A model generated the notes under the pieces. That model saw only the letters and a program-made list of their open reading frames with translations. It had not been told where the DNA came from and searched no databases. Below, piece after piece: positions 14,030 through 42,734 of a stretch of DNA of 64,000 bases. The DNA comes from Chloroflexota bacterium (GTDB taxonomy: Bacteria > Chloroflexota > Anaerolineae > Promineifilales > Promineifilaceae), in contig JAJRYT010000010.1 of the NCBI GenBank assembly GCA_024275635.1, positions 1 to 64,000 of the forward strand, in the 5' to 3' direction. The translations under genes and the position numbers were made by a program. Every line of letters begins with the position of its first letter. The first letter of the stretch is position 1.

Positions 14030-16444
14030 TTAAGCATACGCCAGACTCTCGCGGACGCTGATGCGGGCGGCGTTGTGAGCGGGGATGAGGGAGGCCAGGA
14101 CGGAGATGCAGAGAATGGCGATGAACCAGATGGCAACGGCCGTATAATTAAACGCAAAATCCAAATCCACTTGTAAAATCGTCTGGCCCAGCACGCGGGA
14201 CATGGGCCGGGCAATAGCAAACCCCAGCGGTACGGCCATCAGCCAGCTCAAAAAACCTTGCAGAACCCCCTCCATCACAAACATCCCCATAATCGTCCCC
14301 GTTTGCGCCCCGATTGAGCGTAACACGCCGATCTCCCGCGTCCGCTCCACCACGCTGATAGAAAGCGACCCCATCAGCCCAATCCCGCCAACGATCCCCA
14401 TCACGATAGCCAGGCCGAACATGATATCGGTAATGATACTGAACTGGTTCACCGCGTATTCTCGATCTTGCGGCTTGGTACGGCTGAAAAAATTATTGAC
14501 ATTGATCCCCCGTTCCTGAAACCTATCGGTCAGCGTTTTCATCAAGGCAGCGGTTGCGGCAGCGTCTTTTTGCTCAGCCTGTACCAGCAGTTGGGTGGCC
14601 TGGTGTACTTTTTTGGTGGCGGCGACAACGGCCGTTTCTGGGGCGTAAATCGGATCGGTCGAAAGCGGGTCGGGCGTGATCGCTTCATACATGCCAATGA
14701 TACGCCAATCGCTCGCGCCCATCTCGCCCAGGTCAACGGTGATCGTGTCACCCAGGACAAGGTTGTTAAATTCGGCCGTCTCCTGGCTGATGACAGCCAC
14801 ATTATCCGTCTCGTCGGGGCGCAGCCAACGGCCGTTCACTATCAACGGCTCATACATCTGGCTGCCCAGCGGCACGGCAAACAACTCCGCGCCCAGACCG
14901 CCCGTATCCTGCACCTGCTCCCCCTCTCGCAAAACCGTCCCTGTCACCGAATACCAGGGTTCGGCCGCAGCCACGCCGGGAACCGCCTCCGCCATCCGCT
15001 CCAAAAGTCCTGCCCGGTAGGGAACAAAGAAAAAGAGACGCATATCATACTGCCGCCGATCCAGTTCATTGTTTAACGTGTGCGTCATGGATGAAGCCAA
15101 CGTCAACACCATCAAAAACATCGCCCCGGCCAGCGTCAGCACCAACTGCGTCAAGACCAGCCGCCCTTTACGCCGGAACATATTGCCCAACGCCACCGCG
15201 TACGGCGCCGGCAGCAGGTTTTCGCCAATCCTCTCGATAAGTTGATCCAGCTTACTCGTACCAAAATCACCGCCCAGGCCATAGGTGGCAATCGCTTCGC
15301 GCACCGAAATCATCGCCCCGCTCAACACCGGCCACAACGCTGCCAGCAGCGGCGCTACAATGGCCGCCAACACCTGAAAAATGACGGCGCGGGTCGAAAA
15401 TTGAAACACGTCATAATCAATGTTGAAAATCGCCAGCAGATAGCGCGATCCGGCAAAAGCGGCATACACGCCCAGCGGCAGGGAGAAAATCAGGGCCATG
15501 ACGCCAAAGGCCAGCACCCCGGCCAAGTAAACACGGGCGATGACCGGCGCGGTTCCGCCAATCGCTTTGATGACGCCGATCTGGTCAGTTTGCTGGGTGA
15601 TGACGGCCGTGGTCGTGTTGATGACGATGATAACGCTAGTCATGAGGGAAACAACGGCCAAAATCTGCAAGACAACGGTGATTCCTTCCACAAACGGCCG
15701 TCCCCAATGCTCATCCGGTTTTTGATAAACGGAGATGCTGATCCCGATCCCTTGTCTGGCCAGCCGCTCCTTAATCGCCGCCGCCCGGTCGCGGGCATAC
15801 GCCTCGCTGTACGGCTCCACCCGCACCAACAACTGCACAAACTGCCCTTCGGGAATGTTCAACCGGGCCATCCCTTCAGCGTCGGTGAAAAAGTAGGCGC
15901 CGCCGCCAAAATCAGGCGGCGGCACAAATGGATGGCGAATTTTGCCAGTCACCGGGAAAGCGCGGTCTGTGCCATCTACCTCCAAAACAACCCGGTCGCC
16001 GATGTCAATGCCGTAATAATCGCTGCTGATCCGCTCGATATTCAGTTCGGAACGGCCGGGCCAGCGCCCTTCCTTTAGCTCCAACCAATCATATTTCTGG
16101 TTTTCATAATCATCGCGCATGACGATTGTGCCCGATTCCCATGCAGCGTCAGGATCGGTTTTGTAGCGGATGGAGCGGATGTTGAGCGGCTCAACGCCGG
16201 CCACGCCGGGGATATTGGTCAGGCTTTCGGCCGTTTCCCGGTCAATAAATTGGCGCAGAACGATGTTGAGGTGGGAAGGCTGCACGGACTGGTGCGCCGC
16301 ATCCATGGTGGAGAGCAGTTGTTCTACCATGCCAAAAATGATGCCGATGGAAAATACGCCCACGGCAATGCTGAGGACGGCCAGCGTCGTACGCGCTTTG
16401 TGCTGCCACAGATCGAACCAGACTTTATCCCAAATAACGCTCAT
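14030..16444 (-). CDS. ABC transporter permease, two FtsX modules
   Basis: An 804-residue permease of the MacB/LolC type. The first TM segment (residues ~18-40) is followed by a MacB-like periplasmic domain and an FtsX block (QTDQIGVIKAIGGT). A second TM, periplasmic domain and FtsX block (RTREIGVLRSIGAQTG) complete it. Such permeases work with a LolD-like ATPase to move lipids, lipoproteins or peptides or to act mechanically across the envelope. The ATPase gene lies directly upstream on the same strand, separated by 133 bp of heptad repeats. The substrate is unknown. Confidence 0.88.
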   Translation of the reverse strand: MSVIWDKVWFDLWQHKARTTLAVLSIAVGVFSIGIIFGMVEQLLSTMDAAHQSVQPSHLNIVLRQFIDRETAESLTNIPGVAGVEPLNIRSIRYKTDPDAAWESGTIVMRDDYENQKYDWLELKEGRWPGRSELNIERISSDYYGIDIGDRVVLEVDGTDRAFPVTGKIRHPFVPPPDFGGGAYFFTDAEGMARLNIPEGQFVQLLVRVEPYSEAYARDRAAAIKERLARQGIGISISVYQKPDEHWGRPFVEGITVVLQILAVVSLMTSVIIVINTTTAVITQQTDQIGVIKAIGGTAPVIARVYLAGVLAFGVMALIFSLPLGVYAAFAGSRYLLAIFNIDYDVFQFSTRAVIFQVLAAIVAPLLAALWPVLSGAMISVREAIATYGLGGDFGTSKLDQLIERIGENLLPAPYAVALGNMFRRKGRLVLTQLVLTLAGAMFLMVLTLASSMTHTLNNELDRRQYDMRLFFFVPYRAGLLERMAEAVPGVAAAEPWYSVTGTVLREGEQVQDTGGLGAELFAVPLGSQMYEPLIVNGRWLRPDETDNVAVISQETAEFNNLVLGDTITVDLGEMGASDWRIIGMYEAITPDPLSTDPIYAPETAVVAATKKVHQATQLLVQAEQKDAAATAALMKTLTDRFQERGINVNNFFSRTKPQDREYAVNQFSIITDIMFGLAIVMGIVGGIGLMGSLSISVVERTREIGVLRSIGAQTGTIMGMFVMEGVLQGFLSWLMAVPLGFAIARPMSRVLGQTILQVDLDFAFNYTAVAIWFIAILCISVLASLIPAHNAARISVRESLAYA

Positions 16445-29995: not shown

Positions 29996-30673
29996 ATGAC
30001 CAGTATCTTGCAAACAATCGGCCTACAAAAAGCATACCAGATGGGCGAAGTCACCGTGAACGCGCTGCAAGGCGTGGATTTTACGGTTGAGAAGGGCGAA
30101 TTTGTAGCCATCATGGGACCGTCCGGCTCCGGCAAATCTACTTTACTGCATTTACTGGGTGGCCTGGACGCCCCCAGCGACGGCGAGGTGATGTTAGGCG
30201 GGCGGCGGCTGGCCCATCTCAGCGACGATGACATCACGATTGTGCGGCGGCGGCAGATTGGCTTCATCTTTCAATTTTTCAACCTGCTGCCCACCCTGTC
30301 GGCGGCGGAGAATGTGGCCCTGCCTTTGCTGATTGACGGCCGTTCCCTGGACGAATACCGCCTCCGCATTGACGAACTGCTGACCTTGGTAGGGCTGGGC
30401 GACCGGCAAGACCACAAACCCGATCAGCTATCCGGCGGCCAGCAGCAGCGTGTCGCCATCGCCCGCGCCCTCGTCACCGACCCCGTCATCGTTCTCGCCG
30501 ATGAACCCACCGGCAACCTGGACAGCGAATCAGGCGACGAAATTCTGCGCCTGCTGCGCCGCGCCTGTGACGAGAAGCAGCAAACCATCGTCATGGTGAC
30601 GCACGATCCCAAAGCGGCCGAATACGCGGATCGAATTGTCAGATTAAAGGATGGATTAGTCGAGACGGGATAA
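29996..30673 (+). CDS. ABC transporter ATP-binding protein (LolD/MacB type)
   Basis: A 225-residue ATPase with Walker [10 protein letters not shown], signature LSGGQQQR, Walker B VIVLADEP, and the H-loop VTHD. GAGGAGG precedes the ATG. Families like this power FtsX-type permeases. The nearest plus-strand permease is the 2298-residue fusion 565 bp downstream, with two minus-strand genes between. That makes the fusion its likely partner. Confidence 0.93.
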
Positions 30674-30690: not shown

Positions 30691-30960
30691 TCACACAGGA
30701 TAAACGTCTGTCTCAAGAAGACGGCCGTGTACCCATAACTCAGCTTCACTCAAATCAAGTTCATCATTCCAACTGATACCATATCCACCGGCATCCACCT
30801 GCACCGCATTGAAAAAAGCATCATGATGCAGCAGCGCAAACTGATCATCTTCAAGCAAGCGCGTACAATCATAAATTTTCTGCGTGCCGTTCTGAAATAT
30901 CACCAACAGCCGCTTGCCCGGAATAGGACGTACAGCTTCAATTTTTGGATACTTGTCCAT
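30691..30960 (-). CDS. DUF2442 protein
   Basis: An 89-residue protein with the DUF2442 core (LVIFQNGTQKIYDC, GYGISWNDELDLSEAELW). It overlaps the DUF4160 gene upstream by one base, the usual arrangement of this pair, which has been proposed as a toxin-antitoxin-like unit. Its role here is inferred from the pair only. Confidence 0.8.
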   Translation of the reverse strand: MDKYPKIEAVRPIPGKRLLVIFQNGTQKIYDCTRLLEDDQFALLHHDAFFNAVQVDAGGYGISWNDELDLSEAELWVHGRLLETDVYPV

Positions 30961-31208
30961 CAGTCTAACCCTGGTAATTTTCTAAAATCCTGCGTTTGCC
31001 ACATTGTTAACAACTCTTTTTGGTACTGTAACGCCCATTCACGAATGAGTTTTCGCGCTCGTCGCGGCAAATCTCCTTCAATCATCTCCAATGTTTCTAT
31101 CTCAAAAACGCCATTGTACTCGCCATAAATTGCGTGAAAATGGGCAACGCCATGTTCCCGAAAATACATCTTGATGAGGATGCCGTAGAATCTCGTTATA
31201 ACAGGCAT
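30960..31208 (-). CDS. DUF4160 protein
   Basis: An 82-residue protein of the DUF4160 family, with FYGILIKMYFREHGVAHFHA at the start and REWALQYQKELLTMW near the end. It is first of a two-gene unit with DUF2442, transcribed against the surrounding ABC genes. DUF4160 is thought to be the toxin-like partner, but this is not proven. Confidence 0.8.
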   Translation of the reverse strand: MPVITRFYGILIKMYFREHGVAHFHAIYGEYNGVFEIETLEMIEGDLPRRARKLIREWALQYQKELLTMWQTQDFRKLPGLD

Positions 31209-31238
31209 AGTGCAAGTATATCATAATTAGGAAATCCC

Positions 31239-34200
31239 ATGCGCTCTACAAAAGGTCTTATTTGGCGCAACTTAACCGCCCACCCTTTGCGCAGCATTTT
31301 AACCGCGCTGGCGATTACGCTGGGCGTGGCCATGGTGTTGGCGGCCACTGTCATCGGGCAGGCGGCCAACCAGCAGGCAACGGCCGTCTCCGCCACCGCC
31401 CTCCCCATTGATTTAGAAATCGCAGCCAGGGACAACGCCCCCTTTGCAGCCCCCCTCCTGGCCTCCCCCCTCATCCAATCCACCCTGCCTCAACTTCACA
31501 TCGCCGCCCAGATGCAGCCATCTGACCAAATGCAGTCATCCGGCCGCAGTTTGGAGATCGTTGGCACAGAATTGTCGCTGTACGCAGAAATTTATAGGCC
31601 GGAATTAGCCAACGGCCGTTTCCCCGCCACCCCCAACGCCATCATCCTACCCATGACCGTCGCCCTGCAAAACAATCTCAACGTCGGCGATGAAATCACC
31701 CTGGCGGCGGACGGCCGTCGGCAAACATTCATCGTTGCCGGGCGATTGAAATTGGAAACCGGATCGGTCATTGGACAGAAAACGACGGCATTTGTCCCTC
31801 TGGCGGTGGCGCAGGAATTAGCCGGGCTGCCCAACCAGGTTGACCGCATTGACGTACTGTTGGCTGCCGACGCCAATCCGGACGAAGCGAAAAGCAGCCT
31901 CTCGCAGCAGCTTGGCCCCGATTTGATTGTCTCCCGAACGGCCGTTCCCGGCAGCGCCAACTTCAACCTGATCATCATCCAGGCCGGGATGAGTATCGTC
32001 GGCCTCATCATCCTCTTTGCCGCCGCCTTCGTCATCCTCAACGCCTTCGCCATGTCCGTCACCGCCCGCACCGAGGAGATTGGGGCGCTGCGCGCTTTGG
32101 GAATGAAGCGGCGACAGATATTGCGGCTGGTACTGAGTGAAGCGCTGATTTTGGCCGCGATTGGCGCGGGTTTGGGCATCCTGATGGGGATTGGGCTGGC
32201 CTACGCTATTTTGCAAGGGCAGCAGTTGCTCGCCGACGCCGAATTTGTCGTGCCCTGGTGGGGACTGCTCATTGGGCCGCTGCTGGGGTTAAGCGTCACT
32301 CTAGCCGCCGCCTATTTTCCCGCTCGGCGCGCCAGCCGCGTACCGCCCATTGTGGCCGTACGCAACTATCAGGTAACGGCCGCTTCTGGCTGGGCCATTA
32401 CATCCGGCAGTCGAATGGGTCTGATTTTGTTGGTTTTGACAATTGTGGGAACGGCCGTTTTCGCCCTCATCGGCCAACCCAACATCTTTGTCGCTCTGGG
32501 CGCGTTTGGCGTCGCGTTGATATTGTTGCTGGCGTGCATCGTCTTGCTGCTGCCGGGATTGGCAGTGCGGTTGGGAACGGCCGTTCGCCCCCTCCTTGTG
32601 CGCTGGCAGGGGACAAACGGCCGTCTCGCCGCCGATAACCTGAGCCGCAACCCCCTGCGCACCGCCCTCACTGCCAGCGCCCTCATGGCCGGGCTGCTCA
32701 TGATCATCGCCACAACCGGCTTCCTGCAAATCTTCCTCAAAGGCGGCTTCAGCGCGCCCGTTTCCCAAATTCAGGGGGATGCCTTCATCTATTTCGACCT
32801 GCTCAACGTCGCGGACGACGAATTTGATTACGACAATCTGAATTTTGACTCCTTCTTCGACGCCATGGATCCCAATCTTACCGGCGAATTGGAGGCTTTG
32901 GCCGCCGCCGGAACCGTCAGGCTCATGCCCATACGCGGCGTGGAAGTACCGCCGGAACTACAATTAACGCCGGGCAGTCCCGCCTTGCTTGTCGATCCGC
33001 AATCCTATTTTGACAGCGGTAATTTCACCCTGTTTGAAGGCGACCAGGCGCAGGCGTTGGCCTGGCTGGCGCAAGGCAACGCCATCCTGCTGCAACCCTA
33101 TCTGGCCGAGCGCGTCAACGCTGGCGTAGGCGACACTGTAACCATTCCCACGCCGCGCGGAGATGTGGATTTCATCGTTGCCGGGATTGGCGGCAGCAGT
33201 TTTCCGATGGCGATTTTGCCCTTCAGCGCCGGCAAACAGTATTTTGACGCCGCCGAACCCTCGTTCATCGGGCTGTTAATTCCCGACAGCCAGGATGCGG
33301 AACAAGTGATGACGGCCGTCGAAGCTATCGTCAATCGCTATCCTGAGTATGCCATTTTCCACGTTGACGACATGATTGATCCGGTCATGTCCGCGATGGG
33401 TCAACTGCAACAAACCTTGACCGCGCTCCTGTCCATGGCCGTCATTGTGGCCGCGCTGGGCGTGGTAAACACAATGGTCGTCAATGTGGCCGAACGGCGG
33501 CGCGAAATTGGCATGTTTCGCGCTGTGGGAGCGACGCAGCGGCAGGTGCGGCAAACGGTCATCGCCGAAGCCGCTGTGTTGGGATTCATCGCCGCGCTGA
33601 TTGCCGCGCTGTTCAGCTTTTTGCTCATCGGGCTGCTGGCCTTGTTATTTATCCCCAATGGGTACGCTTCAATGGGCGTGATTGTGGATGCGGCGCTGTG
33701 GCAGGAAGCGTATGGGCCAGCCTTACGCGATATGAGCGCAGCAACGGCCGTTTCCCTCATCCTGGCTCCCCTCATCGCGGCGCTGGCCGCTGCCTACCCC
33801 GCCCGGCAAGCCGCCGCCGTCAACATCGTGGAAGCGACCCGCAGCGAACGACTGTCGCTGACCAAATCGGGCGACGGCCGTATCGAATCCCATCGCCGCC
33901 AACCAACCCGCCATCTCACCAGTCTGGCCTGGCGCAATTTGCAGGAACACCGGCTGCGTACTTTTTTGAGCGCGACGGCCGTCGCCCTGGGCACAGCCAC
34001 CTTCGTCGCCGCCGATTTTGCCAACAGCGGCATCCTCAACCTGGAAACCGGCGGCGACAACCTGCTGGCTTCCTTCATGGACGGGATGGGTATTATTTTG
34101 CAAGCGATTGGCGTCATTATTTTGGCGGCCGCCGCCTTCCTCATTTTTAACGCCTTCGCCATGACCGTCGCCCAGCGGCGGCGGCAGTTGGGCTTGCTGC

Positions 34201-37200
34201 GCTCGTTGGGCATGACGCGGCGACAGGTTGTGCGCCAATTGCTGGCCGAAGCGTGGCTGACCGGCGGCGCAGGCACGCTGTTGGGACTGATTGCCGGGCC
34301 GCTGTTAGGCAGCGTCATTTTGCAATTTATCAAAGCCAGCGGCGTTGAAATTGGCAGCGGCGCCATCTCCTTTTCCACCCTCCTCATGGCCATCGTCGCC
34401 GGATTGGGCATCACCACGCTCTCTGTTTGGATTCCGGCCAAACGCGCGGCCAAAGTGTCGCCGTTAGCCGCGTTACAAGATATTGGCGAGCGGAAGCTGG
34501 AACAGCAATCGCCAATCTTCAATCTTCAATTTTCAATCGCCATCTTTTTAATCTTTGCCCTCACCCTCTATCTCGCCATCGCACCACCCGGCGCATGGAT
34601 TGGTTTGCATCCGCCCTGGCATTTTCTGGTTCCCTGGTTGGTGATGGCCCCCTGGTTTGTGGCGATTGGGCTATTGCTGCCCACGTTGGCGGAGGCGATG
34701 CGGCGGATGACGGCACGGCCGTTAACCCGCATTTTGGGCGCAACCGGCCGCCTCATCAGCGACAACATGGGGCGCGACCGGCGGCGGACGACGTTGACCA
34801 TCCTTACCTTCGTCGTCGGTCTGGCGATGATTGTGGGGCTGAACGGGATGCTCACCTTCATGAATGAAGTCCTGCTGGTGGAATCGGCGCAAGGGTTGCT
34901 GGGAGAGACCATCTGGTTCGTTCACCCCTTCGACAACAGTAATGGCCTGGCCCAATTAGACGAGTACAACCGGGGCGAGGGGCTATCGCCGCAGGTGCAG
35001 GCGGACGTGATCGCGTTGGCCGAAGGGCGGGCTGAAGTGCAGGCGCAATATATGGCGCTTGTGCCGGAAATTGGCTCGCCGCTGCCAGGGTTTCCGACGG
35101 CTTTGACTGACGCTCGCTATTTGGCAAACAGCCACCATTACACGCTGACGGAAGGGGATTGGGAAACGGCCGTTCCCATCATGGAAGGATCGGGCTGCGG
35201 CTTGCTCATCCCGCCCACCGTCGCCGGTCAGCATCAGGCGAGCGTCGGCGACACGCTGACCATCACCGGCAAAAATGGCCCGGTCAACTGCACGGTGGCC
35301 GGGATTGGGCATGGCGGCGCGACGCCGGTATCCATCATCAGCATCGCGGCCAAAGATGCGTTTGTGGATGGAGAGCCGACGCAATTGTCGGTACGGCCGT
35401 ATCCCGGCGCCGACCCCACTGCCCTGGAAGCTGATTTACGCGATTTGGCCGAGCGGCACGGCGACGCCGCCTGGGTGACGACGCCGGAAGATGAAATCGC
35501 TTCGGTCATTGATACCAGCGACCAGTTGGAAGGAATCGCCAACGGGATGCTGCTGCTGGCGGTGTTGGCGGCGGCGCTGGGCATGATCAACACAACTGTG
35601 ACCAGCGTCACTGAGCGACGGCATGAATTGGGCTTGCTGCGGGCGGTGGGCGCGACCCGGCGACAGGCGACTCTTGTTGTCGTGGGCGAAGCGGCGTTGA
35701 TGGGCTTCACCGGCGGCTTCATCGGTCTGATTGCCGGGGCGGGCGTGACGATGATTTACGCGCTTTCCTTTGGCGGCATCCCCTTTGGCCTGGTGGATCT
35801 GGCGTTGTGGCCGGCGGCGTTGCAAAGCGTTGGCCCAGCGCTGGCGCAGGGGTTGCCGGCGCTGATTTTGGTTCCCATCGTCAGCGCCAGCGCCGCCTAT
35901 TTCCCGGCGCGGCAGATTTTGCGGGGAACGGCCGTAGAAACATTGCAGGAACAGAGGCCCACATCCGTGAAGCGGCAGGCAGCGGGATTGTTGAGCCGGG
36001 GCGGCATTCGGACGCGGTTTGTGCTGGGTACGGCCGTTCTCATGCTCCTCGTTTTGGCGGGATTAACGGCCGTCGTCGTCCGCCACTCCCGCAATTACCT
36101 GGAAGAAACGACAGCCGACGTCGTGACCTCGTTAGTCGAACTGAACGCCAGCATGGTCGAATTCAATCTGCCGCCGGACGCCGATATGCTGACGTTGGAC
36201 GCGCTGCAAAGCGGCAGTTTGGACGCCGACGCGCTGCTCCAATTCCGCTCCCTGATTGACGAGATGAACGCCTACGGGCTGACCGAGTTTGTCATCGCCG
36301 ACCAGGATGATATTGTCCTATTTGGCTTTGACATGGGGCAAATGGGGACGGCGCTGGAGCCATTGGCAGATGAGGGGAAGGCGGTTACGGCCGTCACCGA
36401 AACCGACTCCGGCCAACGTGAAATCCAAGCCGCCGCCCCCATCCGCAGTGAAAACGGCGACCTATTGGGCAGCGTGCGCCTGCGGATGGAGTTGGGCGAA
36501 ATCGGCGGCTTTTTGCGCGATTTGAACCGGGCGATTTTGGGGATGGGAGCGTTCATTCTGGCGTTGGGGCTGGCGCTGGCCTGGCGGACGACGACGCCGC
36601 TAGCGCGCGCGACGCGCCAACTCTCGGCGGGGGCGGAACAAGTGGGGCAAGGACGATTTGCGCCGCTGACCCTGCCCCGGACGTCGCTGACGCGCCGTTT
36701 GTTGAATGTGTCGCTGCGGGTGAAGTTGACGGCCGTCATGGTCATCCTCCTCATCCTGCTGGTGGGCGCGTTGGAACAAGTCATCCTACCCATCGAGCGG
36801 CGCAAAGTAGAGGAAGTGACGCAGAACACGCTCATCGCGGGGACGGAATGGATGGCGCAGATGCTCTCATCCGGCATTGCCGACCAATCGGCGGCCCTTT
36901 CCGATTTCAGCGATCTCAACGATTTGCTGCGCCTGATGCAAGGGTCTGACATCGGCCAGATACAAGATTTGAGCCGGCAGATGCAAAACGAGGCTATCGC
37001 CTACAGCGCATTGATTAACGAAAAAGGCATTATCCAACTGTCCGACCAGTTCGATTTAATTGGCGGCGAAGTTGCCATCCCGGCCCAAACCCTGATTAAA
37101 GAGGCAGATTGGCAGGGCGAGCCTATCTGGCACATCACGACGCCGCTGCGGGATGAGGCCAGCGGAGACGTGACCGGCGGGCTGCAAATTGGCGTGTATC

Positions 37201-38135
37201 AACTGGTTATCGAAGATTTTCTGGCCGAGAGCCGGACGCTGTTCCGGTTGGCGGGTGTTATCGCCGTGTTGGCCGGGGTGATTCTGGCCCAGGCGATTGG
37301 CGGCGCAGTGTCGGCCCCCGCGCGGCGGCTGGCGGCCGACACCCGCCGCGTCGGACAAGGCGACCTGTCCGTCCAGTTCCGGGTCAACAGCCGGGATGAG
37401 TTGGCCCAGTTGGCCGGGGCGTTTAACGAAATGGTCGTCGGGCTGCAAGAGCGAGAATGGCTGCGGGATATGTTCGGCCGTTTCGTCAGCCAAGAAGTGG
37501 CCGAGGCGATACGAGCGGGGCAGGTAAAGTTGGAAGGCGAAAACCGCGTCGTCAGCGTCCTATTCTGCGACATTCGCGGCTTCACCGCCCGCTCCGAGAA
37601 ATCCACGCCGGCCGAAATTGTGGCCTTGCTTAATGAGTACCTGCCGGTCGTCGTCAATGCGGCGCAAAATCATGATGGCATGGTCAACAAGTTTGGCGGC
37701 GACAGTACGCTGGTCATCTACGGCGCGCCCAAGCCGCTGCAAGAAAGCGCCTATCATGCGATCCGCACGGCGCTGGAAATGCACCAGAATTTGGCCCTGC
37801 TCAATCAACGATTGGCCGAACGGGGCGAAGAGCCGATCCGCATCGGCGTGGGCATCAACACAGGCACGGTGTTGGCCGGCGCGGTGGGGCCGCCGGAACG
37901 GCAAGAGTACACGGTGATTGGCGATACGGTCAATCTGGCGTCGCGGATCGAGGCGTTGAATAAGGTGTACCCGCAGCATGGCGTTTTGATTAGCGGGCAG
38001 ACGTATGAGGCGCTGGGCGGCCGTCGGGCGGCGTTTGCGTTTACGGATTTGGGCGAGGTGCAGATTCGGGGGAAGGCGGCGGCGGTAAGGGTGTGGGCGG
38101 TGATTAGACTACAAAAGTCTTGGAGACTTTTGTAG
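31239..38135 (+). CDS. Four-module FtsX permease fused to dual sensors and class III adenylate cyclase
   Basis: One uninterrupted ORF of 2298 residues. It contains four FtsX-like blocks. Each ends in a 'PA-R-A' signature or close variant, at about 250-377, 727-868, 950-1083 and 1435-1574. Periplasmic MacB-like domains precede blocks 1, 2 and 4; block 3 has only a short one. Two sensor units follow: TMs at about 1592-1613 and 1766-1784, then 1828-1850 and 2001-2023. Each sensor unit has an extracytoplasmic region of about 150 residues. A HAMP domain (2024-2075) and a cyclase domain (about 2100-2285) close the protein. The cyclase keeps the metal Asp in LFCDIRGFT and KFGGDS, and the EYTVIGDTVNLASRIE region with the transition-state Asn and Arg. 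It should make cAMP (or cGMP). The last eight residues are coded by a RAYT-type palindrome. Heptad units code for residues near 1090-1100. Confidence 0.88.
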   Translation: MRSTKGLIWRNLTAHPLRSILTALAITLGVAMVLAATVIGQAANQQATAVSATALPIDLEIAARDNAPFAAPLLASPLIQSTLPQLHIAAQMQPSDQMQSSGRSLEIVGTELSLYAEIYRPELANGRFPATPNAIILPMTVALQNNLNVGDEITLAADGRRQTFIVAGRLKLETGSVIGQKTTAFVPLAVAQELAGLPNQVDRIDVLLAADANPDEAKSSLSQQLGPDLIVSRTAVPGSANFNLIIIQAGMSIVGLIILFAAAFVILNAFAMSVTARTEEIGALRALGMKRRQILRLVLSEALILAAIGAGLGILMGIGLAYAILQGQQLLADAEFVVPWWGLLIGPLLGLSVTLAAAYFPARRASRVPPIVAVRNYQVTAASGWAITSGSRMGLILLVLTIVGTAVFALIGQPNIFVALGAFGVALILLLACIVLLLPGLAVRLGTAVRPLLVRWQGTNGRLAADNLSRNPLRTALTASALMAGLLMIIATTGFLQIFLKGGFSAPVSQIQGDAFIYFDLLNVADDEFDYDNLNFDSFFDAMDPNLTGELEALAAAGTVRLMPIRGVEVPPELQLTPGSPALLVDPQSYFDSGNFTLFEGDQAQALAWLAQGNAILLQPYLAERVNAGVGDTVTIPTPRGDVDFIVAGIGGSSFPMAILPFSAGKQYFDAAEPSFIGLLIPDSQDAEQVMTAVEAIVNRYPEYAIFHVDDMIDPVMSAMGQLQQTLTALLSMAVIVAALGVVNTMVVNVAERRREIGMFRAVGATQRQVRQTVIAEAAVLGFIAALIAALFSFLLIGLLALLFIPNGYASMGVIVDAALWQEAYGPALRDMSAATAVSLILAPLIAALAAAYPARQAAAVNIVEATRSERLSLTKSGDGRIESHRRQPTRHLTSLAWRNLQEHRLRTFLSATAVALGTATFVAADFANSGILNLETGGDNLLASFMDGMGIILQAIGVIILAAAAFLIFNAFAMTVAQRRRQLGLLRSLGMTRRQVVRQLLAEAWLTGGAGTLLGLIAGPLLGSVILQFIKASGVEIGSGAISFSTLLMAIVAGLGITTLSVWIPAKRAAKVSPLAALQDIGERKLEQQSPIFNLQFSIAIFLIFALTLYLAIAPPGAWIGLHPPWHFLVPWLVMAPWFVAIGLLLPTLAEAMRRMTARPLTRILGATGRLISDNMGRDRRRTTLTILTFVVGLAMIVGLNGMLTFMNEVLLVESAQGLLGETIWFVHPFDNSNGLAQLDEYNRGEGLSPQVQADVIALAEGRAEVQAQYMALVPEIGSPLPGFPTALTDARYLANSHHYTLTEGDWETAVPIMEGSGCGLLIPPTVAGQHQASVGDTLTITGKNGPVNCTVAGIGHGGATPVSIISIAAKDAFVDGEPTQLSVRPYPGADPTALEADLRDLAERHGDAAWVTTPEDEIASVIDTSDQLEGIANGMLLLAVLAAALGMINTTVTSVTERRHELGLLRAVGATRRQATLVVVGEAALMGFTGGFIGLIAGAGVTMIYALSFGGIPFGLVDLALWPAALQSVGPALAQGLPALILVPIVSASAAYFPARQILRGTAVETLQEQRPTSVKRQAAGLLSRGGIRTRFVLGTAVLMLLVLAGLTAVVVRHSRNYLEETTADVVTSLVELNASMVEFNLPPDADMLTLDALQSGSLDADALLQFRSLIDEMNAYGLTEFVIADQDDIVLFGFDMGQMGTALEPLADEGKAVTAVTETDSGQREIQAAAPIRSENGDLLGSVRLRMELGEIGGFLRDLNRAILGMGAFILALGLALAWRTTTPLARATRQLSAGAEQVGQGRFAPLTLPRTSLTRRLLNVSLRVKLTAVMVILLILLVGALEQVILPIERRKVEEVTQNTLIAGTEWMAQMLSSGIADQSAALSDFSDLNDLLRLMQGSDIGQIQDLSRQMQNEAIAYSALINEKGIIQLSDQFDLIGGEVAIPAQTLIKEADWQGEPIWHITTPLRDEASGDVTGGLQIGVYQLVIEDFLAESRTLFRLAGVIAVLAGVILAQAIGGAVSAPARRLAADTRRVGQGDLSVQFRVNSRDELAQLAGAFNEMVVGLQEREWLRDMFGRFVSQEVAEAIRAGQVKLEGENRVVSVLFCDIRGFTARSEKSTPAEIVALLNEYLPVVVNAAQNHDGMVNKFGGDSTLVIYGAPKPLQESAYHAIRTALEMHQNLALLNQRLAERGEEPIRIGVGINTGTVLAGAVGPPERQEYTVIGDTVNLASRIEALNKVYPQHGVLISGQTYEALGGRRAAFAFTDLGEVQIRGKAAAVRVWAVIRLQKSWRLL

Positions 38136-38207
38136 TCTAATCGGTTCGCGGATTTGGGCGCGGCGCAGATTCGGGGGAAGGCAGAAAAGGCGAGGGTGTG
38201 GGCGGTG
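38044..38207. repeat. 59-bp imperfect direct duplication of the cyclase 3' end
   Basis: 38044-38102 and 38149-38207 match at about 50 of 59 positions by hand alignment (CGGATTTGGGCG through GTGTGGGCGGTG). The RAYT-type palindrome lies exactly between them. The second copy would read on as a longer C-terminus ending near 38270 if the palindrome were absent. Confidence 0.8.
38103..38141. repeat. RAYT-type palindrome, copy a
   Basis: ATTAGACTACAAAAGTCT, loop TGG, AGACTTTTGTAGTCTAAT: perfect 18-bp arms. It supplies the terminal codons and stop of the permease-cyclase gene. Confidence 0.9.
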
Positions 38208-38758: not shown

Positions 38759-38927
38759 ATTTCCAGGCAATATAGGCGCGTCGAATATCTTCCAGAGCGG
38801 TTAAACGGGCCGCATATGGCTGTGTTCGCCAGTAAGCAAAATCGGATGGTTGTTCGTTAATCCTTATCTTTCTTACGGTTTTGGCAATTTTTTGCGGATA
38901 TTTTTCCGCTTGAATTTCTTCGGACAT
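38709..38927 (-). CDS. Small partner protein of the nucleotidyltransferase
   Basis: A 72-residue protein starting at ATG 38927 (MSEEIQAEKYPQKIAK). It is basic, soluble and helical, with ARLTALEDIRRAYIAWKYD near the end. This type of small ORF is often seen just upstream of DUF6036-like nucleotidyltransferases. The track's longer ORF includes codons from the palindrome at 38945-38977 and is unlikely. Confidence 0.6.
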   Translation of the reverse strand: MSEEIQAEKYPQKIAKTVRKIRINEQPSDFAYWRTQPYAARLTALEDIRRAYIAWKYDTDPGFQRVYTIIKR

Positions 38928-38944
38928 GATAGGCTGATTATACC

Positions 38945-38977
38945 AGATTACAAAAGTCTGCCAGACTTTTGTAATCT
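38945..38977. repeat. RAYT-type palindrome, copy b
   Basis: AGATTACAAAAGTCT, loop GCC, AGACTTTTGTAATCT: perfect 15-bp arms. It lies between the divergent small gene and the restriction-modification gene. Confidence 0.9.
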
Positions 38978-39110
38978 CTCTGCGCGTCAACAGAAACTCC
39001 GCACACCCGAATTGGAACGGCCGTTTTCCTATCCCTCCGCCTTCCGTTATAATTTCGCAGGGGTAGTTTGCGAACCGCTCCTACAAGCGCATATAACCAG
39101 GAGACACCCT

Positions 39111-42110
39111 ATGCCCGCCCCGCAAAAAATCCACGACCTCATCGCCCAATTCGAGCGCAACCGCAGCGATTACCGCGCTGTCAACTATAACGAAACCGAA
39201 ACCCGCCGCGAATTTATTGACCCCTTCTTCAAAGCGCTGGGCTGGGACGTAGACAACCAGCAGGGCTACAGCGAAGCGTACAAAGAAGTCGTCCACGAAA
39301 CGGCCGTCAAAGTGCAAGGTAAAACCAAAGCCCCCGACTACGCCTTCCGCATCGGCGGACAGGCCAAATTCTTCGTCGAAGCCAAAAAACCCTCCGTCAA
39401 CATCAAAGACGACATCCACCCCGCCTACCAGCTGCGCAGCTACGCCTGGAGCGGCAAACTGCCCCTCAGCATCCTCACCGACTTTGAAGAGTTCGCCGTC
39501 TACGACTGCCGCCCGCGCCCCGTCAAAAGCGACAAAGCCGCCCACAGCCGCGTCATCTACTTCACCTATGACCAATATATCGAAAAATGGGACGAGATCG
39601 CCGCCATCTTTTCCCCCGAAGCGATCCGGCGCGGCTCCTTCGATAAATACGTGCAGTCAAACAAGCTCAAGCGGGGCACGGCCGAAGTGGACGACGCTTT
39701 CCTGGCCGATATTAGCGGCTGGCGCGAACTGCTGGCCCGCAATATCGCCCTGCGTAACGAGATTAAACCACGCGAACTGAACTTCGCCGTCCAGCGCATC
39801 ATTGACCGGCTCATCTTTTTACGCATCGCCGAAGATAGGGGGATTGAGCCTTACGGCCGTCTCCGCAACGCCGCCACAGCCGATCCCGTCTACCCCGAAC
39901 TGTGCCGTCTGTTCCGATTAGCCGACCAGAAATACAACTCCGGCTTGTTCCATTTTCAGGCCGAAAAGGGGCGGGAGGGGCGAGACACCTGGACGCTCGG
40001 TTTGCAAATAGACGACAAGCCGCTGCAAACCATCGTCAAAAACCTCTACTACCCCGACACCCCCTTCCAGTTTGACATGATCCCGGCCGATATTCTGGGG
40101 CAGGTGTACGAGCAGTTTTTGGGCAAAGTCATCCGGCTGACGGCCGGGGGACGGGCCAAAATCGAGGACAAACCGGAAGTCAAAAAGGCGGGCGGCGTTT
40201 TTTACACCCCCACCTACATCGTCGAATACATCGTCGCCCAGACGGTGGGCAAACTGCTGGAGACGCGCAAGCCCGGCCCCAAAGGGAGCGCCGCCCAACT
40301 GGCCATCCTCGACCCGGCCTGCGGCTCCGGCTCCTTCCTCATTGGCGCGTACCAATACCTGCTCGATTGGCATTTGGAGCAGTACAAACAAAAGCCGGAA
40401 CGATGGGCCAAAGGGCGCAATCCGGCCATTTTCCAAAGCGGAGACGATTGGCGGCTGACGATTGGCGAGCGCAAGCGCATTTTGCTGGCCAACATTTACG
40501 GCGTGGACATTGACCCGCAGGCGGTGGAAGTGACCAAGCTCTCGCTGCTGCTCAAGGTGTTGGAGGGGGAGACGGAGGCGGTGCTGAAACCGAGGCTGCT
40601 GGCGGAGCGGGTGCTGCCCGACTTGAGCGGCAACATCCAATGCGGCAATTCGTTAATTGGGCCTGATTTTTACGCGGGGCGGCAGCTGTCGTTGGGCTTG
40701 CTGGATGAGGAGGAGATGTACCGGATCAATGTCTTCGATTGGGAGGCGGCGTTCCCCAACATTGTGGGCTGGGGCGGGTTTGATGCGGTGATTGGGAATC
40801 CGCCGTATGTGCGGCAGGAGACGCTTGGCGAATTCAAATCATACTTCAAAAAACATTACAAAACGTATGCGGGAACGGCTGATTTATATGTTTATTTTGT
40901 AGAAAAGGGGATTGGTTTACTTAAGAAAGACGGCCGTTTTGCATACATCATGGCAAATAAATGGATTAGAGCAAAATATGGCAAACCTCTACGAAAATGG
41001 CTGAAGCAAGAAAATATAGACCAGCTAATTGATTTTGGCGATCTCCCTGTTTTCCAATCAGCAACCACTTACCCTTGTATTGTGTCAGTAAACAAAAGCA
41101 AACCGATTAACTATTTTTCGGTAACAAAACCTGATACGTTGCAATTTTCTAATTTGGCTGAATATGTTGATGATAATGAATATGATGTCAATCTACCAGC
41201 GTTGAATGATGATGGTTGGGCATTGGTAGATGAACCTACGAGGTTGCTTCTTTTGAAGCTTTTACAAGTTGGAAAGTCATTAGGGGAAACTCTTGATCAC
41301 AAACTATATTATGGAATCAAAACTGGCTTAAACAAAGCATTCGTAATAGATGCGGAAACAAAAGACGATCTTGTCGCAAAAGATTCTCGAAGCACAGAAC
41401 TTATAAAACCATTTTTAGCTGGACGTGATATTAAACGATACCAAACGCCAAACGCAACTCGATTTCTTATTTTAATCCCATCTGGTTGGACAAATGCCCA
41501 AACTGACACAACAAATAAATGGGAATGGCTTCAAAATAATTATCCAGCAGTATCCGAACATTTAGCTCAATACGCAGAAGCAGCACAAAAACGATCTGAT
41601 ATGGGGGATTATTGGTGGGAGTTGCGGTCATGTGCATACTACGAAGAATTCGAGAAGCCAAAATTGATGCTGCCAGATATTTCATTGCATGGGAATTTTC
41701 TCCTTGATTCTGGAAATAATTTTTACTGTGTCAATACTGCTTATATTCTTGGAACCTCAGACCTTTATTTGTTGGGGATTCTCAATTCTAAGTTGATCGC
41801 CTTCTTGTATGGTCATATGTCCCCTGCGTATCGAGGTGGATATCTACGATTCATTTACCAATATCTTGTACAGCTTCCAATTCCTGTTCTAAATGAGCCA
41901 GAGCAACGCAAGCAGTTAACGGGTTTGGTTGAACAAATGCTGGACTTGCACAAGCGGCTGGCAACCGCCCGGCTGCCGCAAGAAAAAACCCTCCTGCAAC
42001 GCCAAATCGCCGCCGCCGACCGCCAAATAGACCAACTCGTCTACCAACTCTACACCCTCACCCCCGCAGAAATCGCCATCGTCGAGGGACTAAGACTACA
42101 AAAGTCTTGA
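39111..42110 (+). CDS. Fused restriction-modification enzyme (Type IIG/Eco57I-like)
   Basis: A 999-residue protein. AGGAGA eight bases upstream supports ATG 39111; the track start at 38850 is within the divergent gene. The N-terminus has a PD-(D/E)xK-type nuclease site (D76, E90, K92 in VEAKKP). The methylase has motif I DPACGSG near 400 and the catalytic NPPY near 562, so it should methylate adenine. The C-terminal third resembles a TaqI-type target-recognition domain. From about 40830 to 41890 the DNA is distinctly AT-rich against GC-rich flanks, which suggests an exchanged specificity domain. The last residues (LRLQKS) and the TGA lie in a RAYT palindrome. Confidence 0.88.
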   Translation: MPAPQKIHDLIAQFERNRSDYRAVNYNETETRREFIDPFFKALGWDVDNQQGYSEAYKEVVHETAVKVQGKTKAPDYAFRIGGQAKFFVEAKKPSVNIKDDIHPAYQLRSYAWSGKLPLSILTDFEEFAVYDCRPRPVKSDKAAHSRVIYFTYDQYIEKWDEIAAIFSPEAIRRGSFDKYVQSNKLKRGTAEVDDAFLADISGWRELLARNIALRNEIKPRELNFAVQRIIDRLIFLRIAEDRGIEPYGRLRNAATADPVYPELCRLFRLADQKYNSGLFHFQAEKGREGRDTWTLGLQIDDKPLQTIVKNLYYPDTPFQFDMIPADILGQVYEQFLGKVIRLTAGGRAKIEDKPEVKKAGGVFYTPTYIVEYIVAQTVGKLLETRKPGPKGSAAQLAILDPACGSGSFLIGAYQYLLDWHLEQYKQKPERWAKGRNPAIFQSGDDWRLTIGERKRILLANIYGVDIDPQAVEVTKLSLLLKVLEGETEAVLKPRLLAERVLPDLSGNIQCGNSLIGPDFYAGRQLSLGLLDEEEMYRINVFDWEAAFPNIVGWGGFDAVIGNPPYVRQETLGEFKSYFKKHYKTYAGTADLYVYFVEKGIGLLKKDGRFAYIMANKWIRAKYGKPLRKWLKQENIDQLIDFGDLPVFQSATTYPCIVSVNKSKPINYFSVTKPDTLQFSNLAEYVDDNEYDVNLPALNDDGWALVDEPTRLLLLKLLQVGKSLGETLDHKLYYGIKTGLNKAFVIDAETKDDLVAKDSRSTELIKPFLAGRDIKRYQTPNATRFLILIPSGWTNAQTDTTNKWEWLQNNYPAVSEHLAQYAEAAQKRSDMGDYWWELRSCAYYEEFEKPKLMLPDISLHGNFLLDSGNNFYCVNTAYILGTSDLYLLGILNSKLIAFLYGHMSPAYRGGYLRFIYQYLVQLPIPVLNEPEQRKQLTGLVEQMLDLHKRLATARLPQEKTLLQRQIAAADRQIDQLVYQLYTLTPAEIAIVEGLRLQKS

Positions 42111-42126
42111 AGACTTTTGTAGTCTT
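42092..42126. repeat. RAYT-type palindrome, copy c
   Basis: AAGACTACAAAAGTCT, loop TGA, AGACTTTTGTAGTCTT: perfect 16-bp arms. The TGA loop is the stop codon of the restriction-modification gene. Confidence 0.95.
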
Positions 42127-42150: not shown

Positions 42151-42702
42151 ATGGAACCAGGCAGTTACTACCACATCTTCAACCGGGGCAACAACCGCGA
42201 AAACATCTTCCGCGAAACTGAAAATTACCGCTTCTTCTTGCAACGGTACAAAAAATACCTGACAGCGTATGTCAATACCTACGCCTACTGCTTAATGTCC
42301 AACCATTTCCATTTTCTGGATCGCGTCCATGACGATCCGCGTCTGGCGCAAATCACATCCGGTAAGTTAACGCCTCTGGAAAAAGCGTTCCGCGATTTTT
42401 TCATCTCTTACGCCAAAAGTTTTAACAAGCGCTACGGCCGTACCGGCAGCCTGTTCCAATACAAATTCAAACGCAAACCGGCCGATGATTTGGCGTATCG
42501 AATGCGGCTGGTTGTTTACATTCATGGCAATCCGATACGGGCCGGCCTATGCGCGCGCTTTGAGGATTGGCCGTATAGTTCGTACCGCGCCATTTTGAGC
42601 GATAAGGAAACGGCCGTGCAGCGCGACGCCGTTTTGCAATGGTTTGGCGGGCGTGAGGATTTTATTGCTTTTCACGAGGAGTATAAGGATTGGCGACCGT
42701 AA
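42151..42702 (+). CDS. REP-associated tyrosine transposase (RAYT, Y1_Tnp)
   Basis: A 183-residue HUH-superfamily protein related to IS200/IS605 transposases. The HUH motif is H52-F-H54 in MSNHFHF, and the catalytic Tyr is most likely Y123 in VVYIHGNP. The start YYHIFNRGNN and the NPIRAGL string are typical of RAYTs. It should nick single-stranded palindromes such as those on either side. Its TAA touches the downstream palindrome. Two ACGGCCGT copies lie in the gene. Confidence 0.92.
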   Translation: MEPGSYYHIFNRGNNRENIFRETENYRFFLQRYKKYLTAYVNTYAYCLMSNHFHFLDRVHDDPRLAQITSGKLTPLEKAFRDFFISYAKSFNKRYGRTGSLFQYKFKRKPADDLAYRMRLVVYIHGNPIRAGLCARFEDWPYSSYRAILSDKETAVQRDAVLQWFGGREDFIAFHEEYKDWRP

Positions 42703-42734
42703 GACTACAAAAGTCTTGGAGACTTTTGTAGTCT
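42702..42734. repeat. RAYT-type palindrome, copy d
   Basis: AGACTACAAAAGTCT, loop TGG, AGACTTTTGTAGTCT: perfect 15-bp arms immediately after the transposase stop. Confidence 0.95.

Follow-up and report, generated by a model that had tools for sequence, protein, structure and literature searches.

On the forward strand of the window, by which we mean the whole stretch of 64,000 nucleotides that was analysed, lies a gene of 2298 codons without an internal stop (ORF check), whose product joins two permease units, a cytosolic linker, two outward-facing sensors, a HAMP domain and a cyclase domain in a single chain (Table 1). An earlier note had described it as one ORF with four FtsX-type permease blocks, two membrane sensor units, HAMP and a cyclase, and this is confirmed by the ORF analysis and by Pfam: the families which that note had proposed to search for are all matched, with four stretches of FtsX (PF02687; 215.6 bits versus a cut-off of 25.5; E 1.9e-64), three of MacB_PCD (3.8e-26), one HAMP domain and one Guanylate_cyc domain at residues 2104–2282 (1.3e-26). 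At positions 35960–36010, where the note had considered that a stop or frameshift might separate permease and cyclase, the frame is open, and third-position GC content amounts to 0.70–0.79 in 10 of 10 segments of 690 bases along the gene, these positions included.

An ABC ATPase is encoded upstream on the same strand, and a DUF4160/DUF2442 gene pair runs in between on the opposite strand, so that the ATPase and the permease of the window are probably not on one transcript. A promoter-like site, for which the evidence is weak, is located at 31198–31227 just before the ATG of the fusion gene. The REP-like palindrome that overlaps the end of the fusion gene, ACAAAAGTCTnnnAGACTTTTGT, occurs in four copies (38102–38142, 38945–38977, 42098–42120, and 42707–42729; 0 expected), two of which directly flank the ORF 42151–42702, which looks by eye like a REP-associated tyrosine transposase. 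On the 3' side of the palindrome at the end of the fusion gene, positions 38144–38207 hold a copy (83%) of the 3' end of the cyclase. An Eco57I/TaqI-type restriction-modification enzyme (38850–42110, +) adjoins the fusion gene. A further palindrome, ACGGCCGT, is found 101 times in positions 1–64000 versus 1.1 copies expected from dinucleotide shuffles; it is the commonest octamer in the window and in the same-family loci L042, L043, L051, L053, L054, and L056, and it is absent from L041, L049, L050, and L052. Its abundance resembles that of the HIP1 palindrome of cyanobacteria (PMC4390886), and a literature search found no report of a HIP1-like palindrome in Chloroflexota.

Table 1. Features of the fusion gene and its neighbourhood; residue numbers refer to the fusion protein, positions to the window unless a locus is named.
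Feature	Position	Strand	Remarks
ABC ATPase, 225 aa, probable motor	29996..30673	+	ABC_tran E 5.4e-36
DUF4160/DUF2442 gene pair between ATPase and fusion gene	30691-31208	-	absent at the G023 locus
Fusion gene	31239..38135	+	2298 aa; ORF and Pfam
Permease unit A (residues 1-900)	31239..33938	+	FtsX modules 1 and 2, each including a MacB_PCD; laid out like YbbP
Module 1 coupling-helix motif (277-293)	32067..32117	+	
Module 2 coupling-helix motif (753-769)	33495..33545	+	
Permease unit B (901-1572)	33939..35954	+	FtsX modules 3 and 4; AlphaFold model, fold matches
Module 3 coupling-helix motif (980-996)	34176..34226	+	
Module 4 coupling-helix motif (1460-1476)	35616..35666	+	
Cytosolic linker, permease B to sensor 1 (1573-1590)	35955..36008	+	length as in G215 within one residue
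Sensor 1 (1590-1825)	36006..36713	+	TM, sCache-like domain (about 1615-1759), TM, short HAMP-like stub
Sensor 2 (1826-2019)	36714..37295	+	TM, sCache-like domain, TM; tandem copy of sensor 1 that has diverged
HAMP domain (2020-2070)	37296..37448	+	Pfam E 1e-10
Class III (IIIb-type) adenylate cyclase domain	37548..38084	+	Pfam, residue alignment, fold
REP-like palindrome	38102..38142	.	supplies the last ~11 codons and the stop of the fusion gene
G023 copy	L024/L042 1-1386 and L010/L043	- (L024/L042)	

Permease units and their ATPase

The four FtsX modules of the earlier note are present, but judging from their sequences they are more aptly described as a tandem of two complete type VII ABC permeases with 10 TM helices each. 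In self-comparison, units A and B are 32% identical (E 9e-65), module 1 matches module 3 at 40% and module 2 matches module 4 at 35%, and the coupling-helix motif is intact in 4 of 4 modules. MacB_PCD, a MacB-like periplasmic domain that lies between TM1 and TM2 of a module, is found in only three of the modules, because module 3 has just a short TM1-TM2 loop, which is common to the relatives G215 and G023 described below. Unit A hence contains two periplasmic domains, while in unit B the first is missing and the second is kept. The AlphaFold model of unit B (mean pLDDT 74) has ten TM helices with an ectodomain only between TM7 and TM8, and in fold searches it matches YbbP with Z 28.1 over 583 residues at 14% identity and BceB with Z 20.0 at 11% identity; the predicted structures cover unit B with sensor 1 and the C-terminal part of the protein. 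Although the fold is similar, the NCBIfam equivalog cut-off for YbbP is not reached (34.8 vs. 999 bits). The identity as a LolCDE exporter was rejected (LolD 251 vs. 307.75 bits; LolCE 108.7 vs. 362.45 bits), so that ATPase and permease are not established as lipoprotein exporters, and MacB was rejected as well, as the curated cut-off was missed. The window contains a second two-module FtsX/MacB permease (14030–16444, –; 804 aa), which is placed very distant from units A and B in the tree.

Regarding the motor, the earlier note had pointed to a LolD-type ATPase gene upstream. An ABC ATPase on the same strand is indeed nearby; the LolD assignment did not hold, since LolD is the best curated model for this protein yet its cut-off is missed. 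The association with the permease has in turn been strengthened: close relatives of the window ATPase (69–76% identity) are encoded directly upstream of stand-alone B permeases in the genomes G393, G318, and G227, at gaps of about 6, 14, and 0 bp, and in G023 a gap of 12 bp separates the ATPase gene from the remaining fusion ORF. The ATPases of the window and of G023 are 91% identical with a dN/dS of 0.04–0.06. Because stand-alone B permeases directly follow close relatives of this ATPase in three genomes, it probably powers the permease units.

Sensors, HAMP, and cyclase

Sensor 1 exceeds the threshold of sCache_3_2 in a scan restricted to the sensor region (30.0 vs. 28.4 bits) and matches it more weakly in the whole-protein scan, and its model, which is part of the unit B model, resembles the receptor domains of CitA, WalK, and DcuS with Z-scores of 10.6–13.3 (CitA Z 12.6). 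For sensor 2, sCache_3_2 gives a weak match in the G023 copy only (18.9 vs. 28.4 bits); the two sensors are 22% identical over 215 aa (E 1.5e-4, self-comparison), and both are modelled as helix, five-stranded sheet and helix with the same order of strands. The fold-search matches listed for the C-terminal model are cyclases, the closest being class IIIb adenylate cyclases, i.e., CyaB (Z 26.5) and CyaC (Z 26.2). The earlier note had stated that the catalytic residues are in place, and alignment with CyaC and PaCyaB bears this out for all six, namely D2111, K2151, D2155, T2225, N2232, and R2236, comprising the two metal-binding Asp, the purine-selecting Lys and Thr (K2151/T2225) and the Asn/Arg pair that acts on the transition state. 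By established rules, sequence and model thus identify a class IIIb adenylate cyclase with cAMP as the predicted product. The same genome encodes many other class III cyclases and gives 19 matches to cNMP-binding domains, which suggests that cAMP receptors are plentiful.

Conservation, distribution, and origin

The earlier note had asked for the same fusion in other Chloroflexota, and it is found in G215, a genome from another family of the same class, as a colinear orthologue in a single frame of at least 2101 codons, the 5' end of which lies beyond the contig start. This copy carries four FtsX modules, likewise without the domain of module 3, both sensors, HAMP and cyclase; it is 43% identical to the window protein over the permeases (45% over unit A alone), 45% over the sensors and 46% at the junction of permease, linker, and sensor. 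As this copy is independent and colinear and includes the junction, the sequences confirm the fusion as real and conserved rather than an assembly accident. A third copy is found in G023, from the family of the window (JALUPA010000674.1, Ardenticatenaceae bacterium, Chloroflexota). Here, half of module 3 is followed in one ORF by sensor 1, of which the second half is present, and by sensor 2, and HAMP and cyclase are located on an abutting contig with a near-overlap of 20 bp, so modules 1, 2, and 4, half of module 3 and half of sensor 1 are missing while the frame is kept. The shortening could be biological streamlining or assembly collapse. Between the genome of the window (G000) and G023, dN/dS (NG86) is 0.08–0.38 for the pieces from the FtsX half, the sensors, and HAMP, with 0.08 for HAMP and 0.10 for the cyclase; all pieces stay below 0.4, which argues for purifying selection.

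The fusion is rare. It is present in 2 of 56 genomes of the order (G000, G023), in 2 of 396 genomes of the class sample (G000, G215; sensor-region search) and in at least 1 of 400 genomes of the phylum sample, where the sensor profile detected G000 only among the candidates scored and where the count is a lower bound given four scored candidates per genome. A wider scan of genome contigs with two short patterns, which may leave out very near genomes, found the G023 copy alone. Viral contigs contained no relative, on which ground a viral origin was rejected. Junction profiles revealed stand-alone relatives of permease B of about 680–720 aa and 37–45% identity in five genomes, i.e., G331 (twice), G393, G318, G212, and G227, and a contig-cut relative in G057 likewise ends without a sensor. 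Close stand-alone relatives of unit A were not found in the genomes searched, and sensors without a permease were found neither in the 396 class genomes nor among the scored candidates of the 400 phylum genomes; at this similarity, unit A and the sensors were met only in fusions. In a maximum-likelihood tree, the two A units form one clade (100/100), and all B units together are its sister group (97/99). No clade unites the two fused B units, as B of G000 groups with stand-alone B permeases (100/100) apart from B of G215, and from this topology B may have been replaced, or the stand-alone copies may have descended from fused ones. The simplest story would be that an ATPase and B system existed, that its permease was duplicated to yield A and that the product was joined to a Cache-HAMP-cyclase receptor, with partial losses or replacement of B at a later stage.

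Transport, signalling, and related systems

Based on sequence and models, we infer that the fusion protein is probably a transporter-coupled receptor cyclase. Copies of the upstream ATPase would bind at the coupling helices, of which there are four in all and two in each 10-TM unit, as in YbbA2-YbbP, and ATP binding and hydrolysis would shift the periplasmic domains of both units by mechanotransmission. TM10 of unit B is connected with TM1 of sensor 1 by the short linker in the cytosol, and because of this continuity the permease state and any ligands of the Cache domains could jointly bias the sensor and HAMP helices so that the cyclase dimer opens or closes. The likely result would be that transport load or envelope stress changes the cAMP level. 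That cAMP output is set by the ATPase cycle of one permease unit or of both, along the covalent path of TM10, linker, Cache, and HAMP, which would make a flux sensor of one protein, we propose more tentatively, at somewhat less than an even chance. Amphiphilic membrane compounds such as lipids, lipoproteins, and peptides are the default cargo for this permease class and would be the expected cargo here. That transport or the state of the envelope controls cAMP, as the earlier note had suggested, is a reasonable reading by analogy, and precedents from BceAB-BceS and the P4-ATPase-guanylate cyclases make coupling of transport and cyclase plausible; the arrangement would be a counterpart of the BceAB-BceS flux sensor, but covalent and with cAMP output.

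The rarity of the fusion and the tree, in which the fused B units form no clade, count against the coupled reading. Fusion need not mean coupling either, and the cyclase could be regulated by the Cache sensors only. The main rival, which we consider rather unlikely, is accordingly that permease and sensor-cyclase are independent and merely co-located at a ratio of 1:1, cAMP being set by Cache ligands while the transporter works alone. A Cache-HAMP-cyclase protein suffices as a receptor by itself, stand-alone B permeases occur without a cyclase, and in G023 purifying selection acts on what is kept, namely half of sensor 1, sensor 2, HAMP, and cyclase, alongside no more than half of module 3, so that the cyclase there needs no full permease, if the assembly is right. 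This independence is countered by the failure to meet the sensors apart from a permease in the class and phylum samples and by the conserved length of the linker, as expected if the helix register matters. The direction of the signal is not fixed by the order of the fusion either, and type VII permeases, which receive their drive on the cytosolic side, are responsive to regulatory partners, as in FtsEX; sensors and cyclase, or a bound nucleotide, might therefore gate the permease, with cAMP as by-product or local feedback. We regard such reverse coupling as improbable, since the catalytic residues are all kept and the cyclase together with HAMP has the lowest dN/dS of the fusion, which suggests that its product matters, and cNMP-binding proteins are numerous in the genome.

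Separate permease and cyclase genes joined by misassembly or a missed stop would fit the facts that all carriers are draft, probably metagenome-assembled genomes, that the gene contains internal repeats and that the G023 copy is broken across two contigs, for one of which the record title gives a coverage of 4.7. This reading is already contradicted by the orthologue of G215 and the uniform codon signature along the gene, was rejected on these grounds and is in our view extremely improbable.

The transporter-coupled reading can be compared with several known systems, of which BceAB-BceS, CbrA and the P4-ATPase-guanylate cyclases come nearest to it. Type VII ABC systems signal outward, as FtsEX, or work beside a kinase, as BceAB-BceS. 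The YbbAP system of E. coli has a pseudosymmetric FtsX pair in a 10-TM permease, an ATPase from a separate gene, a ratio of two ATPases to one permease and mechanotransmission (PMC12646458); with its two periplasmic domains YbbP corresponds to unit A, and it resembles unit B in fold, but it is one permease without sensor or cyclase. In the bacitracin system, the type VII ABC permease BceAB controls the signalling enzyme BceS (PMC7828314). BceB has 10 TM helices and a single large ectodomain between TM7 and TM8 like unit B, whereas unit A has two; BceAB and BceS are separate proteins, and the output is that of a histidine kinase which lacks an extracellular sensor. CbrA and other SLC5-STAC histidine kinases ("transceptors") have a transporter and a signalling enzyme on the same polypeptide (PMC13022988), but with a secondary symporter instead of an ABC permease, a STAC domain and kinase output. 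Class IIIb adenylate cyclases, exemplified by the cores of CyaC and PaCyaB, share catalytic residues and fold with the C-terminal domain but have other N-terminal modules and no permease. P4-ATPase-guanylate cyclases occur in apicomplexans and ciliates. Those of Plasmodium and Toxoplasma likewise unite an ATP-driven domain of lipid-transporter type with a class III cyclase, and in PfGCalpha the P4-ATPase activity acts upstream of cGMP synthesis (PMC7858053); they differ in being eukaryotic, in using a P-type ATPase, in producing cGMP and in lacking Cache and HAMP domains.

The earlier note knew of no such signalling design from the literature. The open-licence full-text literature searched yielded no description of a type VII ABC permease pair joined with Cache sensors and an adenylate cyclase, but the P4-ATPase-guanylate cyclases are a precedent for joining transporter and cyclase, and transporter-signalling fusions (CbrA, P4-ATPase-cyclases) and type VII ABC sensory complexes are already known. 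What appears to be new, judging from the literature searched, is the combination of a type VII ABC permease pair, Cache sensors and adenylate cyclase in one chain. The protein would provide a parallel in bacteria to the puzzling P4-ATPase-guanylate cyclases known from malaria parasites, and a single construct would allow one to test if a second messenger can be controlled by an ABC transport cycle.
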